NCBI GenBank assembly: GCA_012964435.1
Contig: DTTX01000031.1
Coordinates: 1 to 48,382, forward strand
Reading direction: 5' to 3'
From: Mesonia sp.
Lineage (GTDB): Bacteria > Bacteroidota > Bacteroidia > Flavobacteriales > Flavobacteriaceae
DNA length: 48,382 bases
In this document: positions 29,078 to 36,841 of the stretch, one piece after another
Position numbering within the stretch: the stretch's first letter is position 1
How the letters are laid out: every line of letters begins with the position of its first letter
The notes under the pieces: generated by a model
Told to the model about the DNA's origin: nothing
Seen by the model: only the letters and a program-made list of their open reading frames with translations
The model's database searches: none
Translations under genes and position numbers: made by a program

Positions 29078-29944
29078 TTAAAATTGATTTTTAGCCTTTT
29101 TGAAGACATATATTAAGCTAGAAAATTCATTTGTGCGTTTTGCTTTCAAATTACTCTTCATTCCTACTCGAAAAGCTTTTAGAAAATTAGATTTTCCGGT
29201 TTTATATTTTTCTGAAAGTAAACTCACATAAAAAGAATCAAAAACTAAAGGTAAAGTCTTTTGAAATTGAAATTGATGAGATTCTAATAATCTAATCATC
29301 CCTTTTTTTGAAAAATGCCATAAATGTCGAGGCACGTCGTAGGCTGCCCAAAATTCTTGGTAATAACTAGCATCGTAACTTTTAAAATTAGGCACTGCAA
29401 TAATTAAATATCCGTTTGTATTTAATAATGAATGAAATTTTTCTATTTGACGATCTAAGTCGGGAATATGTTCTAAAACATGCCAAAGACTAATTACATC
29501 AAATTTTTCTTCCGAAGAAATTAAAGAAAAATCTTCAACTAAACGAATCTCTTTTTGCTCGGCTAATTTTCTAGCCGATGAATTTGGCTCCACTCCCCTA
29601 ACCTTCCAGTTTTTTTGTTTGGCAGTTTTTAAAAAATCTCCGGTTCCTGCGCCAATATCTAGTAAGGTTTTATTTTCTGAATTTACTAAAGAATTGATCA
29701 ACTTCACTTTTTTCTGAAGCATCACATTTTTTACACCTTGATAAAGTTTATCTGAGAATTTTTTTCTTGCATCGGTATGCGAAATATAATCTTCACTTTG
29801 ATAATACTTAGGAAGATCTTCTGGTGAAGGCTGCGGTTGCGTAATTAAAATATCTTGATGATCGTTATAGATCAATTCAAAATTTTCACCACTAACTGTA
29901 TAATCTTTACAAGTTAAAAAAGGTTTTTTTTGAGAGGTTTTCAT
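29078..29944 (-). CDS. Class I SAM-dependent methyltransferase
   Basis: 288-residue methyltransferase of the Methyltransf_23 type. SAM-binding motif I is LLDIGAGTGDFLKTA (about residues 94-108), the acidic residue after strand 2 is in VRGVEPNSSA, and motif IV is FDVISLWHVLEHIPD. PRHLWHFSKKGMIRLLE is a recurring segment in this group, members of which often sit in cell-surface glycan loci. The N-terminal 90 residues include YYQSEDYISH. The substrate is unknown. It overlaps the upstream lipoprotein gene by one base. Confidence 0.85.
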   Translation of the reverse strand: MKTSQKKPFLTCKDYTVSGENFELIYNDHQDILITQPQPSPEDLPKYYQSEDYISHTDARKKFSDKLYQGVKNVMLQKKVKLINSLVNSENKTLLDIGAGTGDFLKTAKQKNWKVRGVEPNSSARKLAEQKEIRLVEDFSLISSEEKFDVISLWHVLEHIPDLDRQIEKFHSLLNTNGYLIIAVPNFKSYDASYYQEFWAAYDVPRHLWHFSKKGMIRLLESHQFQFQKTLPLVFDSFYVSLLSEKYKTGKSNFLKAFRVGMKSNLKAKRTNEFSSLIYVFKKAKNQF

Positions 29945-30941: not shown

Positions 30942-30957
30942 TGTTCCACGTGGAACA
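30942..30957. promoter_or_regulatory. parS-like centromere site, intergenic copy
   Basis: Perfect 16-bp palindrome TGTTCCACGTGGAACA, matching the known ParB-binding parS consensus TGTTNCACGTGNAACA. It lies between the mnmG stop and a lipoprotein start. An identical copy lies 1913 bp away, on the other side of mnmG. Confidence 0.85.
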
Positions 30958-30964
30958 TTAAAAA

Positions 30965-32836
30965 TTATCTTCCCATATAAACCAGAAGAACTGAAATATC
31001 TGCCGGACTTACTCCGCTCACTCTAGAAGCTTGCGATACGGTTTTAGGTTGAATTTTATTTAATTTTTCACGTGCTTCCATCGACATAGATTTCAACTTC
31101 ATATAATCAAAATCAGATGGAATTTTTAAATTTTCTAAACGATGAAGTTTATCTGCGTTGTTCTTTTCTTTTTCGATATAACCCGCATATTTCACCTGAA
31201 TTTCGGTTTGCTCTAAAACCTCATGATCTAATTGATGTTCTTGAATATAATTTTCTACCGATTCAATTTTACGCATATCATCCATCGTCATATTTGGCCG
31301 AGCAAAGATCTTGAACATCTTACCACTTTGTTTTACGCTAGCAGAATTGTTAGCTTCTAATACCGGATTAATTTCTTCCGGATTCACACTCGTTTCTCTA
31401 AAGAAAGAAACAAACGCATCTGAAGAATCTTTTTTAGATTCCATTCTCGCCATTCGCTTAGCCGAAGCTAAACCAAGTTGATAAGATTTCTCTGTCAGTC
31501 TAAAGTCAGCATTATCCTGTCTAAGAAGGGGTCTGTATTCCGCACGCGAAGTAAACATACGATAGGGTTCTTCTGTACCTTTTGTAATGAGATCGTCTAT
31601 TAAAACGCCTATATACGCTTCATCTCGACTTAACACAAATTCTTCTTTCTCTTGAACTTTAAGCGCCGCATTAATACCTGCCATTAATCCTTGACAAGCT
31701 GCTTCTTCATAACCGGTGGTTCCATTAATTTGTCCGGCAAAATATAACCCTTCAACTAATTTAGTTTCCAAGGTATGTTGTAATTGCGTTGGCGGAAAAT
31801 AATCATATTCGATCGCATAACCCGGTCTAAAGAATTTTACGTTTTCAAAACCGGCAACAGATTTTAAAGCACGGTATTGAACATCTTCTGGTAACGAAGT
31901 TGAAAAACCATTTACATAAAACTCCACCGTATTCCACCCTTCTGGTTCTACAAAAAGTTGATGACGATCTTTATCGGCAAAACGGTTAATCTTATCTTCG
32001 ATACTCGGGCAATATCTTGGGCCTACACTTTCTATTCTTCCGTTGAACATTGGTGAACGATCAAAACCTTCTTTTAATAAATTATGCACTTCAGGAGAAG
32101 TGTAGGTCATGTGGCAAGATCGCTGTTTAGCTAAGGGCTTGGTCACATCTAAATAAGAAAATTTAGCAGGAACATCGTCACCAGGTTGTTCTACCATTTT
32201 TGAGAAATCTAACGAACGACCATCTACTCGTGGCGGAGTTCCTGTTTTCATTCTACCCGATTCAAAACCTAGATTTACTAAATCTGCTGTAATTCCTGTC
32301 GCAGCTCTTTCACCAGATCTTCCTCCGCCAAAATTCTTTTCACCAATATGAATTAAACCATTAAGGAAAGTACCGTTCGTAAGAACTACACTTTTACCTT
32401 TAATTTCTAGACCAAGTGAAGTTCGTACTCCGGTAATTTTTCCGTTTTCAGATAAAATACCTGAAACCATTTCTTGATAAAAATCTAAATTTTCAGTTTG
32501 CTCCAGCATCATTCGCCAATCTTCAGCAAAACGCATGCGGTCACTTTGCACACGCGGACTCCACATTGCAGGACCTTTGGATTTATTCAGCATTTTAAAT
32601 TGAATAGCGCTGGTATCACTCACAATACCGCTATAACCACCCATTGCATCAATTTCACGCACAATCTGCCCTTTTGCAATCCCACCCATTGCAGGATTAC
32701 AAGACATTTGCGCTATGTTTTGCAAATTCATGGTTACTAATAAGGTTTTACTTCCCATATTCGCAGCAGCAGCAGCAGCTTCACTTCCTGCGTGCCCACC
32801 ACCTACTACAATCACATCGTATTCTTTCTCAAACAT
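30965..32836 (-). CDS. mnmG: tRNA U34 carboxymethylaminomethyl-modifying enzyme MnmG (GidA)
   Basis: FAD-dependent subunit of the MnmE-MnmG complex that modifies wobble uridine in several tRNAs. FAD-binding GGGHAGSEAAAAAA is near residue 12. SCNPAMGGIAKGQIVREIDAMGG, GTFLNGLIHIGEKNFGGGR, RMKTGTPPRVD and AGQINGTTGYEEAACQGL are strong MnmG signatures, and the C-terminal helical domain ends in GVSPADISVLLVYMGR. Full length at 623 residues. Its historic name gidA (glucose-inhibited division) reflects its place near oriC in many genomes; here parS-like sites flank it. Confidence 0.97.
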   Translation of the reverse strand: MFEKEYDVIVVGGGHAGSEAAAAAANMGSKTLLVTMNLQNIAQMSCNPAMGGIAKGQIVREIDAMGGYSGIVSDTSAIQFKMLNKSKGPAMWSPRVQSDRMRFAEDWRMMLEQTENLDFYQEMVSGILSENGKITGVRTSLGLEIKGKSVVLTNGTFLNGLIHIGEKNFGGGRSGERAATGITADLVNLGFESGRMKTGTPPRVDGRSLDFSKMVEQPGDDVPAKFSYLDVTKPLAKQRSCHMTYTSPEVHNLLKEGFDRSPMFNGRIESVGPRYCPSIEDKINRFADKDRHQLFVEPEGWNTVEFYVNGFSTSLPEDVQYRALKSVAGFENVKFFRPGYAIEYDYFPPTQLQHTLETKLVEGLYFAGQINGTTGYEEAACQGLMAGINAALKVQEKEEFVLSRDEAYIGVLIDDLITKGTEEPYRMFTSRAEYRPLLRQDNADFRLTEKSYQLGLASAKRMARMESKKDSSDAFVSFFRETSVNPEEINPVLEANNSASVKQSGKMFKIFARPNMTMDDMRKIESVENYIQEHQLDHEVLEQTEIQVKYAGYIEKEKNNADKLHRLENLKIPSDFDYMKLKSMSMEAREKLNKIQPKTVSQASRVSGVSPADISVLLVYMGR

Positions 32837-32850
32837 TACCTTATAAATTT

Positions 32851-33270
32851 CTATTGTTCCACGTGGAACATTTTAATTTTTTCATCTTCTTTTTCACGCA
32901 TAAGTTGCGCTTCCTCATCTGTTTTATCTTTATAACCACAGAAGTGCAATAAACCGTGAGCAATGACTCTTTTTAATTCATCCTGAAAAGTAACCTGAAA
33001 TTTTTCAGCATTTTCAGCCACACGTTCTGTACTAATAAATATATCACCGTGCAAAATATTTCCAACCGCATTATCAAAACTGATGATGTCGGTATAGTCG
33101 TCATGATTTAAATACTTTACATTTATCTCGTGTAAATATTCATCGTCACAAAAAATATAATTGATATCGCCTTCTTTTTTTTCTTCTGATATAATGACAT
33201 TTTGTAACCACTTTTCGTAAGTTACATTGTCTTCTAATTCAAAATTGTTTTCACTGAAAAAGTTAATCAT
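32851..33270 (-). CDS. ybeY: Endoribonuclease YbeY (rRNA maturation)
   Basis: Metal-dependent endoribonuclease involved in 16S rRNA 3' maturation and ribosome quality control. The metal-binding motif is HGLLHFCGYKD: the first two histidines are present, but the usual third His is Asp, as I recall in Bacteroidota members. YTDIISFD is another family signature. 139 residues is normal. The last residues, MFHVEQ, are encoded by a parS-like palindrome (32855-32870). It overlaps the DUF4175 gene by 8 bp. Confidence 0.92.
   Translation of the reverse strand: MINFFSENNFELEDNVTYEKWLQNVIISEEKKEGDINYIFCDDEYLHEINVKYLNHDDYTDIISFDNAVGNILHGDIFISTERVAENAEKFQVTFQDELKRVIAHGLLHFCGYKDKTDEEAQLMREKEDEKIKMFHVEQ
32855..32870. 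promoter_or_regulatory. parS-like centromere site inside the ybeY 3' end
   Basis: Second perfect TGTTCCACGTGGAACA palindrome. It lies wholly in the last codons of ybeY (Met-Phe-His-Val-Glu-Gln, then TAG) and 18 bp upstream of the mnmG start. Confidence 0.85.
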
Positions 33271-36200
33271 TCGCTTTAAAATATTCTTGAACTTTTATTT
33301 TGAAATTTTGCTGCAAAGGTAAGCTTTGTCTATTTAAAATTTCAGTGGTGTTGAAATATTCTTTCGCCTTATCTAATTGAAGTTGAGTTGGATTCTGATA
33401 CGTTTTTCTATTCGTTTCAGATTCACGTTTATTATCCTGCCCTTGTTGTAAAGAAGCTTCTTCTAACTTTAATAATTGATGCTGAATATTCTTCATTTGA
33501 GATTCGGTTCGCTCGGTAACTCCGCCACGCAACAATTCATCTTCAATTTGCTTCATTTGGCGAGCTAGATTTTTAGCTTTTTCATCTAAACCTTCTTTAC
33601 GAATCATATCTTCTAATTGATTACGCAATTCTTGCTGACGTTGATAGATCTCAAAAATCTCACCACTCAATTGCTCCGCAGATTTTTGTCCGTTTTCACC
33701 TTGTTGGTTTCCGTTGCCATCTTTACCATTGTTTCCAGATTGACCACCATCACCGTTTCTTCCGTTTTCACCTTGAGAACCAGATTGACCTCCTTGTCCT
33801 GATTGTTCTCCTTGACCAGATTGACCTTGTTTACCTTTACCGGGAGAACCAGACTCTCCTTGCTTTTTACCTTTACCTTGCCCTATTTGTTCACCAAGTT
33901 CTCCTTGTTTTTGAATAATATCTTGTAATTGAAAACCTCTTCCCTGCCCTTGTCCTTGTCCCGGACTTGGTTGACCTTGACCTTGACCTTGACCAGAACC
34001 CATAGCCATTGCCTGCATTTGTTGTAAAGATTCATTAAGCATATTTGCCAAATCGTTCGCACCTTTAAATACATATTGCTGACTCGCAACACCGGTTCTT
34101 AACTGATTTTCTGATAATCTTTCTAAAGATTTATCGATATTAAATTCTATATCGGTGAGTTGGGAAGTGATTTGATCGCCAATCATCGGATTTCGTAGTG
34201 CTAAAGCATACAAACTATCATCGACGTGCTGAAAGTTCTCTTTTAAAACATATTGATATCGGAGTTTCTTTGCGTATTGCGGACTGTTTTCTTCAATCGC
34301 ATTAAAATCTTCCATCAAGTCTTCTTGCTGAAATGAAAACGTAATTAGGTTATCTAAAATTTGCCGAAGCATTTCTGCATCTTCTTGATTTTGCTCTGAG
34401 CTTCCTTGCATCATCATATTCATCATCTGTTGGCCCATTTGTTGCATTTTCTGTCCGGCAGATTTTTGCTTTTGTTTGGCTTTTTGAGAAGGTGAAGATT
34501 TTTGTTTTTGAGAATTCTGTTCTTCTTGGCTCTGTTCAGAATTTTTTGAATTCTCTTTATCTGAAGGTTCGTCTCCAGATTCATTATTTTCTTCTTCAGA
34601 ACCAGATTTTTGTTCAGAATTTTCAGATTGTTTTTCTTCAGAATCTTTTAGTTCTTCGCTTGCCTCTTTTTGATCATTTTTAATAGATGCTTCCTCTATT
34701 TCATCACGATGAGTTTTTAATGGATTTTTTAGTTTATTATTTTCTTCCTCTAACTCATCCATTTGCTTTTGTAATTCTTCAAAAGCTTTATTCATTTTTT
34801 CTTGTTCTTCCGCAGAATTTAAAGAATCATTCTCTGCTAATTTTTCTTGTTTTTTTCCAAGCTCATCGATCTCTTTAGAAATTTGCTCTGCCTTTTTCTG
34901 AACGTAATAACGCTTTGTTAACTCTAGGAGTTGTTCTAAACTTTTTTGTTCGTTTTGATTTTGTTTGCTTAATTTTTCAATCTTTTGGTTAAGCTCTTCT
35001 TTATTTATTTTATCTTGATATTTTTCTAGTTCTTTCAGCAATTCTTCGTTTTGCTCAATACGCTCTTCATTTTTTTCTAAACGCTCTTTTAGTTGTTCTT
35101 TAAATTGATCACTTTTTTCAGGCTGAAATTGCTCTAAGTTCTCCTTCATCTGCTTAGAGTATTCTTTCATCATTTTTTCTTGCTGCTGTTGACGCTCGAT
35201 ATAATTTTCTAATTTTTTACGGTCGTTATAATTGAGCTGCTTTTTTTCTTTCTGTAGTTGATCAAGCTCTTGTAATTCTTTGTTGCTCTCTTTCATTTTT
35301 TGCAACGAATTATCCATATCTTTTATGGTTTCTTCTTGATTGTTGAGCTGTTCTTGTGTTTCTTCATCTTCAGTAAACTTGCGGAAAGAAAAAGTTTCAC
35401 TTTTGGTCCGCTTCTTTCCATTTACTTGGTCATTATCAAAAACCTGAAAATAAAATTCGTAAGCTTTGCCACGATCTAACTGCAAATCTCCAGGAAAAGC
35501 ATAAACAAAATCATCGAAGGTTGAAGTGCTTAACGAGAAGTTCACTTTTTTAGTTTCCTTAGGATTTTCACTGGCAAAATAAACCAACTGTAAACCGGTT
35601 AAACCGTAATCGTCGGCTACTTTACCATAGAAATACATCACTTGACGATCTAAAGAATCACGCTTCATTTCTACATCAAGCTCAGGGAATTCATCACGAA
35701 CGACTTTTAATTGATAGGACAGTTGTTCGTAATTTTTTAATTGCTCGTTAGAAGTTGAAATCTGATACGAAGTATTTCTGAAAATTTGCTGTTGAAGCGA
35801 AAATTGATCTTCTGATCGATGAAAATTTTCTAACGTATCGGGTAAATTCAACTGAATTTGGTTCGTGGCTTTTGCGGTAAGATTCCACGAAACTTTAGTA
35901 CCTTCAGGAATAGTGGCATTTCCGGTTCCTTTTAAAACTTCATCTTGTTTACCCACATAAGCAGGATAATCGAGTTGCATTTCAAAATTTACCAAGGTAG
36001 GAACGTTAATTACTTGTAATTGGTAAGGTTTGGAAGTCACCTCGTTCGAGCTAAAATAAAATTCGGTATTCTTTGAAACACGATCAAAAGTATATTCAAA
36101 AACACCGGGATTTACTTTCTTTAAAAAATAGGTTTCACCATCGTAATGAATGCTGGCATTATCAGGAATTACACTACCATCGGTAAATATTCTCAAGCTT

Positions 36201-36841
36201 AAACTTTCATTTTCTTTTACCTGCAATTGATCCTGATTAAGTTGAAATGAAAACGGAGCCGGTGGTTCGTAAGCTTGATCGTAATTGACAACCCGTGTAT
36301 AGCTTTCGGAGAATAAATTACTATTCCCAGAAATATAGATCGCTAAAAAAATAAACACCGGAATTATCGCATACTTTACATACCTAAGATTTGATTTAAA
36401 ATTTACCGCAATTTGAAAAGGAATAGGTTGTAGCTCCAGAGATTTTTGATCGATACTTGCCAACAACAATTCAGAATCATTACTTTTTGCATTTTTATGA
36501 AGCTGTAGAATATTCAGCAATTTATCGTTTACTTCCGGGAAATGTTCACCAATAATTTTAGAAGCTTGCTCGTAATTAATTCCTTTAGAAAGTTTGAATA
36601 GTTTAGCGAGCGGGTACAAAATAAATCTTCCGAATAAAGCTACCTCTACCCCAACAAAAAGCCAGAATAAAATTTTTCTTCCGAGGGAATTCAGCCAGAA
36701 AAAATATTCAAAAGAAACTGTGATCAGAAAATACAAAAACCCAATGGCAAAAAATAAAATTGCTCCTTTTACTAATTCATTTAAGTAATATTTTCTAATA
36801 AAAGCTTCTAACTTATGCTTGATAAGTTGGTAATTATTCAT
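33263..36841 (-). CDS. DUF4175-type giant membrane protein with coiled coil and Gly/Gln-rich region
   Basis: 1192 residues. Two or three membrane helices lie near the N-terminus (about 25-45, 55-75 and 155-172), followed by a periplasmic beta-rich part with APFSFQLNQDQLQVKENESL. From about residue 490 there is a very long Glu/Lys/Gln coiled coil, with an acidic Ser/Glu/Asn patch near 725-780. A Gly/Gln/Asn low-complexity stretch runs from about 945 to 1050, and a short coiled tail ends the protein. This matches the large DUF4175 proteins of Bacteroidota, whose function is not established. DNA in the Gly/Gln region includes four TTGACC hexamers in tandem on the plus strand (33971-33994), a possible slippage site. 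Confidence 0.75.
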   Translation of the reverse strand: MNNYQLIKHKLEAFIRKYYLNELVKGAILFFAIGFLYFLITVSFEYFFWLNSLGRKILFWLFVGVEVALFGRFILYPLAKLFKLSKGINYEQASKIIGEHFPEVNDKLLNILQLHKNAKSNDSELLLASIDQKSLELQPIPFQIAVNFKSNLRYVKYAIIPVFIFLAIYISGNSNLFSESYTRVVNYDQAYEPPAPFSFQLNQDQLQVKENESLSLRIFTDGSVIPDNASIHYDGETYFLKKVNPGVFEYTFDRVSKNTEFYFSSNEVTSKPYQLQVINVPTLVNFEMQLDYPAYVGKQDEVLKGTGNATIPEGTKVSWNLTAKATNQIQLNLPDTLENFHRSEDQFSLQQQIFRNTSYQISTSNEQLKNYEQLSYQLKVVRDEFPELDVEMKRDSLDRQVMYFYGKVADDYGLTGLQLVYFASENPKETKKVNFSLSTSTFDDFVYAFPGDLQLDRGKAYEFYFQVFDNDQVNGKKRTKSETFSFRKFTEDEETQEQLNNQEETIKDMDNSLQKMKESNKELQELDQLQKEKKQLNYNDRKKLENYIERQQQQEKMMKEYSKQMKENLEQFQPEKSDQFKEQLKERLEKNEERIEQNEELLKELEKYQDKINKEELNQKIEKLSKQNQNEQKSLEQLLELTKRYYVQKKAEQISKEIDELGKKQEKLAENDSLNSAEEQEKMNKAFEELQKQMDELEEENNKLKNPLKTHRDEIEEASIKNDQKEASEELKDSEEKQSENSEQKSGSEEENNESGDEPSDKENSKNSEQSQEEQNSQKQKSSPSQKAKQKQKSAGQKMQQMGQQMMNMMMQGSSEQNQEDAEMLRQILDNLITFSFQQEDLMEDFNAIEENSPQYAKKLRYQYVLKENFQHVDDSLYALALRNPMIGDQITSQLTDIEFNIDKSLERLSENQLRTGVASQQYVFKGANDLANMLNESLQQMQAMAMGSGQGQGQGQPSPGQGQGQGRGFQLQDIIQKQGELGEQIGQGKGKKQGESGSPGKGKQGQSGQGEQSGQGGQSGSQGENGRNGDGGQSGNNGKDGNGNQQGENGQKSAEQLSGEIFEIYQRQQELRNQLEDMIRKEGLDEKAKNLARQMKQIEDELLRGGVTERTESQMKNIQHQLLKLEEASLQQGQDNKRESETNRKTYQNPTQLQLDKAKEYFNTTEILNRQSLPLQQNFKIKVQEYFKAND

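Follow-up and report, generated by a model that had tools for sequence, protein, structure and literature searches.

Two identical palindromes that flank the tRNA-modification gene mnmG (gidA) in a genome of the genus Mesonia are very probably the parS sites of the chromosome, at which ParB and ParA would form a partition complex, and the C-terminal tail of YbeY, which one of the two palindromes encodes, would be a by-product of this function. The window in which they lie, a stretch of 48,382 nucleotides, is the whole of contig C31 of a draft genome (94 contigs, 3.05 Mb, 90.5% complete); judged by MnmG, with 99% identity, the best named relative is Mesonia mobilis (Flavobacteriaceae, Flavobacteriales). 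A sequence-only reading of this DNA had proposed that the same 16-mer occurs twice and fits the parS consensus. Both copies of TGTTCCACGTGGAACA are indeed exact (30942-30957 and 32855-32870, neither assigned to a strand), and both match TGTTNCACGTGNAACA at every position. The first copy lies 7 nt past the stop codon of mnmG (30965-32836, minus strand; NCBIfam TIGR00136, 847.5 bits against a cut-off of 524.85). The second copy, which precedes the mnmG start by 18 nt, falls within the last codons of ybeY (32851-33270, minus strand; NCBIfam TIGR00043, 108.4 bits against a cut-off of 45), where it encodes FHVEQ. The end of the gene reads ATG TTC CAC GTG GAA CAA TAG, exactly the MFHVEQ-stop that had been described. 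The same neighbourhood contains a methyltransferase gene (29078-29944, minus strand) next to an OmpH-like gene, and a gene for a 1192-aa protein directly upstream of ybeY (33263-36841, minus strand) that matches DUF4175 only marginally (27.8 bits, the cut-off being 27.3).

The two copies around mnmG are the only places in the assembly where TGTTCCACGTGGAACA occurs without mismatch, and the reversed control pattern does not occur at all. When up to two mismatches are allowed, the real pattern is found at five places and the reversed control also at five, so that the three degenerate places can be regarded as background. Many dispersed copies had been named in advance as a finding that would speak against parS; the genome holds the two exact sites only. 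At the family scale, the exact site is present in 261 of 299 genomes (our own included) and the reversed control in a single one, and the exact pair can therefore not reasonably be attributed to chance. In a phylum-level draw of 247 genomes, all at least 90% complete, the exact site was present in 184 and missing from 63, with control matches in G220, G369 and G434.

The association with mnmG is almost invariable in the Flavobacteriaceae loci examined. All 30 loci of relatives that were fetched by the pattern itself (L006-L035) have mnmG at no more than 1.5 kb from the site; these loci were chosen by the site, and a choice by MnmG similarity makes a cleaner test. We therefore assembled a set of 81 loci, 80 named loci (the best 80 of 304 by MnmG similarity) plus the window, and searched it for the 14-bp core GTTNCACGTGNAAC, taking as flanks 300 nt upstream and 600 nt downstream of mnmG. 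The core was found upstream in 81/81 and downstream in 80/81 loci, hence on both sides in all except L080, which has the upstream site only. Median distances are 16 nt (range 10-77) from the end of the nearest upstream core to the mnmG start and 10 nt (range 3-479) from the mnmG stop to the beginning of the nearest downstream core. Over the 1.10 Mb of these loci, 185 of 187 core sites fall inside the flanks, the remaining two being extra copies in L061. This locus, from Winogradskyella wichelsiae, has three extra parS copies in total, which lie beyond the mnmG stop (about +450 to +980) at intervals of about 240-270 bp and share an A at the first degenerate position.

The 38 family genomes that lack an exact site were examined through their MnmG proteins. 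A match was obtained in 32 and none in six; after setting aside G112 (a 77-residue fragment) and G035 (a marginal match of 39 residues), 30 loci were fetched. A site with one or two mismatches is present upstream of mnmG in all 30 and on both sides in 28, the exceptions being L270 and the truncated L278. The mismatches are mostly located at the two outermost bases, which vary also in the list of P. aeruginosa parS sites (PMC4368675). A different arrangement was observed in G322, from genus g127, which we guess to be Flavobacterium: five parS cores are clustered within about 300 bp at a contig start (L312:260-560), the last of them in the ybeY tail. The 15-kb piece that was fetched has no mnmG, so that the contig appears to break there. 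A protein 44% identical to the 1192-aa protein of the window is encoded at the same place in this locus.

Single-contig genomes allow the sites to be counted over a whole chromosome. In nine of 12 such genomes the count of core sites is exactly two, with about 1.9 kb between them; the control was zero in all 12. The sites abut mnmG in these nine genomes and in G131, which has one core site and, on the other flank of mnmG, a site with an internal mismatch. In G023, three cores are grouped within 1.7 kb (C1:997144-998780; L284, L295), and neither mnmG nor ybeY lies within 1.5 kb of them. The cores surround a methyltransferase gene 49% identical to that of the window; two of the three flank this G023 gene, and an OmpH-like gene follows, as in the window. 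A homologue of this methyltransferase was found in all 81 mnmG-selected loci. As the sites of G023 have stayed with this neighbourhood without mnmG, they seem to belong to the place rather than to the gene. One genome counts against the parS reading: G123 (single contig, 2,735,158 bp) has a ParB, and searches for core parS and, by protein and by family, for mnmG found neither. Contig ends were considered as a cause of this double absence and offered no explanation. The link between parS and mnmG loosens outside the order, as mnmG was present in the 3-kb locus for seven of 13 class-level loci fetched by pattern (families f4 and f8) and not for the other six (f5 and f9). Two loci of family f5, L225 and L226, were scanned for the neighbours of parS. 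In L225 the first site starts 12 nt after the threonine synthase gene (thrC); in L226 a threonine synthase gene lies about 0.6 kb from parS, with a small ORF between them.

The copy inside ybeY raises the question of which molecule is conserved, the DNA or the protein. We compared 152 ybeY genes with a readable stop codon. FHV occurs within the last 25 residues of 65 of the encoded proteins and is absent from 87; in the latter, the site is mostly located between ybeY and mnmG (named set). In all 65 tails FHV is coded by TTY CAC GTG and the DNA is the parS core, and where the 16-bp consensus is not followed exactly (nine deviations), the difference always concerns an outermost base. The 110 ybeY genes from loci fetched by MnmG, not chosen for the site (30 of these loci come from genomes chosen for lacking the exact site), give the same picture, with FHV in parS-compatible codons in 47/47. 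FHV is preceded by Met or Leu (xTG) in 62 tails and by Arg (AGG) in the three that have an outer G, in agreement with what the DNA dictates. It is followed by Glu in 58 and by Lys in seven, and this exchange reverses the charge at a position that parS leaves degenerate. Two further parS sites lie in ybeY in another reading frame. One could suppose instead that the tail is conserved as protein and that the palindrome is simply its codons, since FHVE recurs in 58 of the 152 YbeY tails. We find this scarcely credible: more than half of the genes (87/152) do without FHV, and the 65 that have it use CAC and GTG without exception, against 34.6% of His codons and 19.0% of Val codons in gene bodies. 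Moreover, the exchange of E for K is tolerated in seven of 65 tails, yet H and V never show a silent change. The compared genes come from related genomes, so the FHV tails are not independent events. The comparison supports the idea that the pattern reflects a constraint on DNA, not on protein, and with 65 of 65 FHV tails in parS-compatible codons only, the earlier suggestion of a YbeY tail dictated by the centromere is strengthened.

Two other explanations concern the palindromes themselves. They could be operators for a transcription factor controlling mnmG or its neighbours, their likeness to parS being secondary. Such operators would be well placed upstream of mnmG, where the median distance of 16 nt could allow binding to affect expression, and the sites accompany the same gene in nearly all the Flavobacteriaceae loci examined. 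However, an operator need not follow a stop codon, yet the downstream copy is kept in 80 of 81 loci, and the sites occur away from mnmG in 6 of the 13 class-level loci and, in G023, away from both mnmG and ybeY. The variation of the FHV tails is also confined to the open positions of the parS consensus plus the outermost base, and the site is a published parS letter for letter. We consider the operator explanation highly unlikely. The palindromes could alternatively act in RNA, as hairpins serving as terminators or attenuators at gene ends. A perfect 16-nt palindrome can form a 6-bp stem, and the 51-nt stretch around the second copy folds better than its shuffled versions (z -2.90, with 2/200 as good), whereas the stretch around the first copy does not (z -0.38, 63/200 as good). 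The second copy was also scored as terminator-like, but on the plus strand, antisense to ybeY and mnmG; neither site received such a call on the transcribed strand. In many relatives, moreover, the site is in the spacer that separates ybeY from mnmG, 10-90 nt ahead of the start of the latter, where it does not close a transcript. Both the terminator and the attenuator versions were dropped after folding and terminator scoring, and a role as RNA hairpins appears extremely improbable.

A partition function for these sites would involve a ParB. The only TIGR00180 match of the assembly is a ParB encoded on contig C34 (L119:6473-7381) with ParB_N, HTH_ParB and ParB_C domains. It is preceded by the gene of a ParA-type ATPase (L119:5702-6466; Pfam AAA_31 and CbiA), for which none of the NCBIfam ParA models reaches its cut-off, and the pair is followed by genes for DUF5683, dapB and signal peptidase I. 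The statement that the window has no parA or parB thus holds for ParB, and the lack of any ParB homologue in the genome, which would have spoken against parS, is not what we found. More generally, ParB scored above the cut-off in 36 of 36 genomes searched. The Mesonia ParB reaches 244.8 with the NCBIfam Noc model, below its cut-off of 315, and as the one ParB-family match it leaves no separate Noc protein in the assembly; among proteins of solved structure, its best relatives carry the annotations ParB family protein and Spo0J. Two residues described as absolutely conserved in ParB, R173 and G201 in Caulobacter numbering, set the preference for parS over the Noc site (PMC7383237). By hand count along the protein only, they fit the R of GKNRST and the G of SMGHGR in the Mesonia ParB. 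The same hand count along the protein gives K at position 184, a residue reported as permissive for Noc-site binding (PMC7383237).

No Smc above cut-off was found beside this ParB. In the Mesonia genome (90.5% complete) the best match to TIGR02168 reaches 28 bits against a cut-off of 567, all 24 candidates having been scored. In a wider comparison, in which no more than 17 candidates of each genome were scored, Smc exceeded the cut-off in none of 17 Flavobacteriales genomes (G000, G053, G273, G143, G154, G254, G175, G059, G023, G068, G123, G125, G131, G171, G256, G310 and G390) and in seven of nine other Bacteroidota. ParB was also searched for in 13 of these 17 Flavobacteriales and was present in all 13. 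By gene content, the sites would not belong to the Smc-loading type of parS (Bacillus or Caulobacter), which is defined by an encoded Smc. A protein matching PF13558 (SbcC-type Walker-B), in an open frame of about 1010 aa, occurs in all three genomes of the window's genus that were searched, and no match was detected in five other Flavobacteriaceae or in G305. As PF13558 is confined to this genus among the genomes searched, it does not identify a replacement condensin. Smc loading is the usual second job of ParB; in these bacteria it is probably either absent or performed by another partner.

The palindromes had further been claimed to lie near oriC. In the Mesonia genome, dnaA and parB are both on contig C34, 68 kb apart. 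We analysed the GC skew of five single-contig relatives (G143, G254, G154, G175 and G059, the order kept below), using 20 stretches of 20 kb from each, one of which (L138, from G143) contains 7,923 N. The skew was corrected for gene direction, and origin and terminus were fitted with a resolution of roughly 200 kb. In the first fit, the origin lies 218, 23, 126, 0.7 and 361 kb from parS and 2.1, 1.07, 1.25, 0.99 and 0.74 Mb from dnaA. When residuals were permuted, the fit was reached in 0, 1, 0, 0 and 3 of 100 cases. A finer fit places parS at 15.5, 2.3, 3.5, 0 and 0% of the half-chromosome from the origin (Fisher p 4e-7). Because extra samples had been placed near parS, the fit was repeated without them, giving 15.5, 3.4, 1.3, 16.4 and 9.6% (combined p 0.002). 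Neither dnaA (p 0.95) nor parB (p 0.89) is near the fitted skew origin in these relatives. The skew of G254 is weak (coefficient 0.014 versus 0.027-0.040 in the other four), and in G143 parS and the fitted origin are separated by 0.22-0.34 Mb, with dnaA near the fitted terminus. From the listed positions, parB lies 0.66-1.41 Mb from parS in six genomes (G143, G154, G254, G175, G059 and G023). In all five relatives, therefore, parS marks the skew origin to a resolution of roughly 200 kb, and dnaA and parB do not. The claim of proximity to oriC stands in so far as the skew origin is 0-16% of a half-chromosome away, and fails if dnaA or parB is taken as the marker; since the sites are far from both genes in these relatives, it rests on the skew.

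We also searched for DnaA boxes, taking TTATCCACA as the presumed consensus and defining a cluster as three matches (up to one mismatch) within 400 bp. The search covered about 6 kb around mnmG in the 81 loci, ten 20-kb samples next to parS in the five relatives and eight further samples of G143. No cluster adjoins mnmG; in all the DNA covered, clusters occur in L055 and L085 only, about 5 kb from mnmG, and oriC itself was therefore not located. In the window, TTWTNCACA has five matches where 6.84 are expected, and the GC skew is mostly negative with no clear switch, most genes being on the minus strand too.

Returning to the reading of the palindromes as parS, the following scheme can be proposed by analogy. 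ParB, encoded elsewhere beside ParA, would load at both sites as a CTP-dependent clamp, and ParB-CTP would then slide outward over ybeY-mnmG and the neighbouring genes. ParA would move the resulting partition complex, so that the sister origins separate first. The site inside ybeY would be kept as DNA, with the protein tail as its by-product. Given that no Smc match above the cut-off was obtained in the 17 Flavobacteriales, this complex would work without the usual loading of Smc. On a larger scale, it is possible, and we suggest it tentatively, that the centromere of Flavobacteriaceae is a compact unit, usually parS-mnmG-parS, which stays with the origin, operates without Smc and is so strongly conserved that it writes the YbeY tail, dnaA and parB having moved away. 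The adjacency of parS and mnmG may be left over from an organisation of the origin that predates the phylum.

If these interpretations are correct, mnmG with its flanking parS sites would provide a landmark of the origin region in a large family where dnaA misleads, which could help to orient genomes and to derive growth rates from sequencing coverage. With about two sites and no Smc above the cut-off, these bacteria would also offer a natural setting in which to study ParB-parS segregation without Smc. The end of ybeY would be a clean example of a signal at the DNA level overriding constraint at the protein level. Our literature search did not find a family-wide parS pair around mnmG, apart from dnaA and parB and without Smc, nor a parS within ybeY or a YbeY tail dictated by parS; for both, the work of Livny et al. 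of 2007, reportedly a survey of parS sites, stands outside the comparison.

The individual elements of this arrangement have counterparts in other bacteria. In 12 gut genomes, origins were placed by clusters of parS and GC skew and are not systematically located at dnaA; in two of these species, Bacteroides caecimuris and Muribaculum intestinale, no known condensin was found (PMC10197239). These gut Bacteroidetes differ in not being Flavobacteriaceae, and the available part of that account does not mention the position of parS relative to mnmG or ybeY. In Bradyrhizobiaceae, the parS-type palindrome TGTTTCACGTGAAACA occurs in predicted oriC regions next to gidA, that is mnmG, at a switch in GC disparity (Ori-Finder, PMC2275245). 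In that different phylum, however, the sequence was read as two DnaA boxes, and the account, in its available part, describes no pair flanking gidA (PMC2275245). At the DNA level the likeness is with Pseudomonas: the parS listed for P. putida (PMC7022226, table) and parS2/parS3 of P. aeruginosa (PMC4368675) are TGTTCCACGTGGAACA, the identical 16-bp site, parS1 and parS4 of P. aeruginosa differ from it at the last base only, and nine of the ten P. aeruginosa sites are predicted in coding sequence (PMC4368675). Unlike the ParABS system of Pseudomonas, the Mesonia system has a pair of sites around mnmG, a parB encoded on a different contig and no Smc above the cut-off. There is thus nothing new in parS itself, in its presence inside genes or beside gidA, or in an origin that lies away from dnaA; what we provisionally regard as new is the family-wide pair of sites flanking mnmG, its separation from both dnaA and parB, and the YbeY tail.
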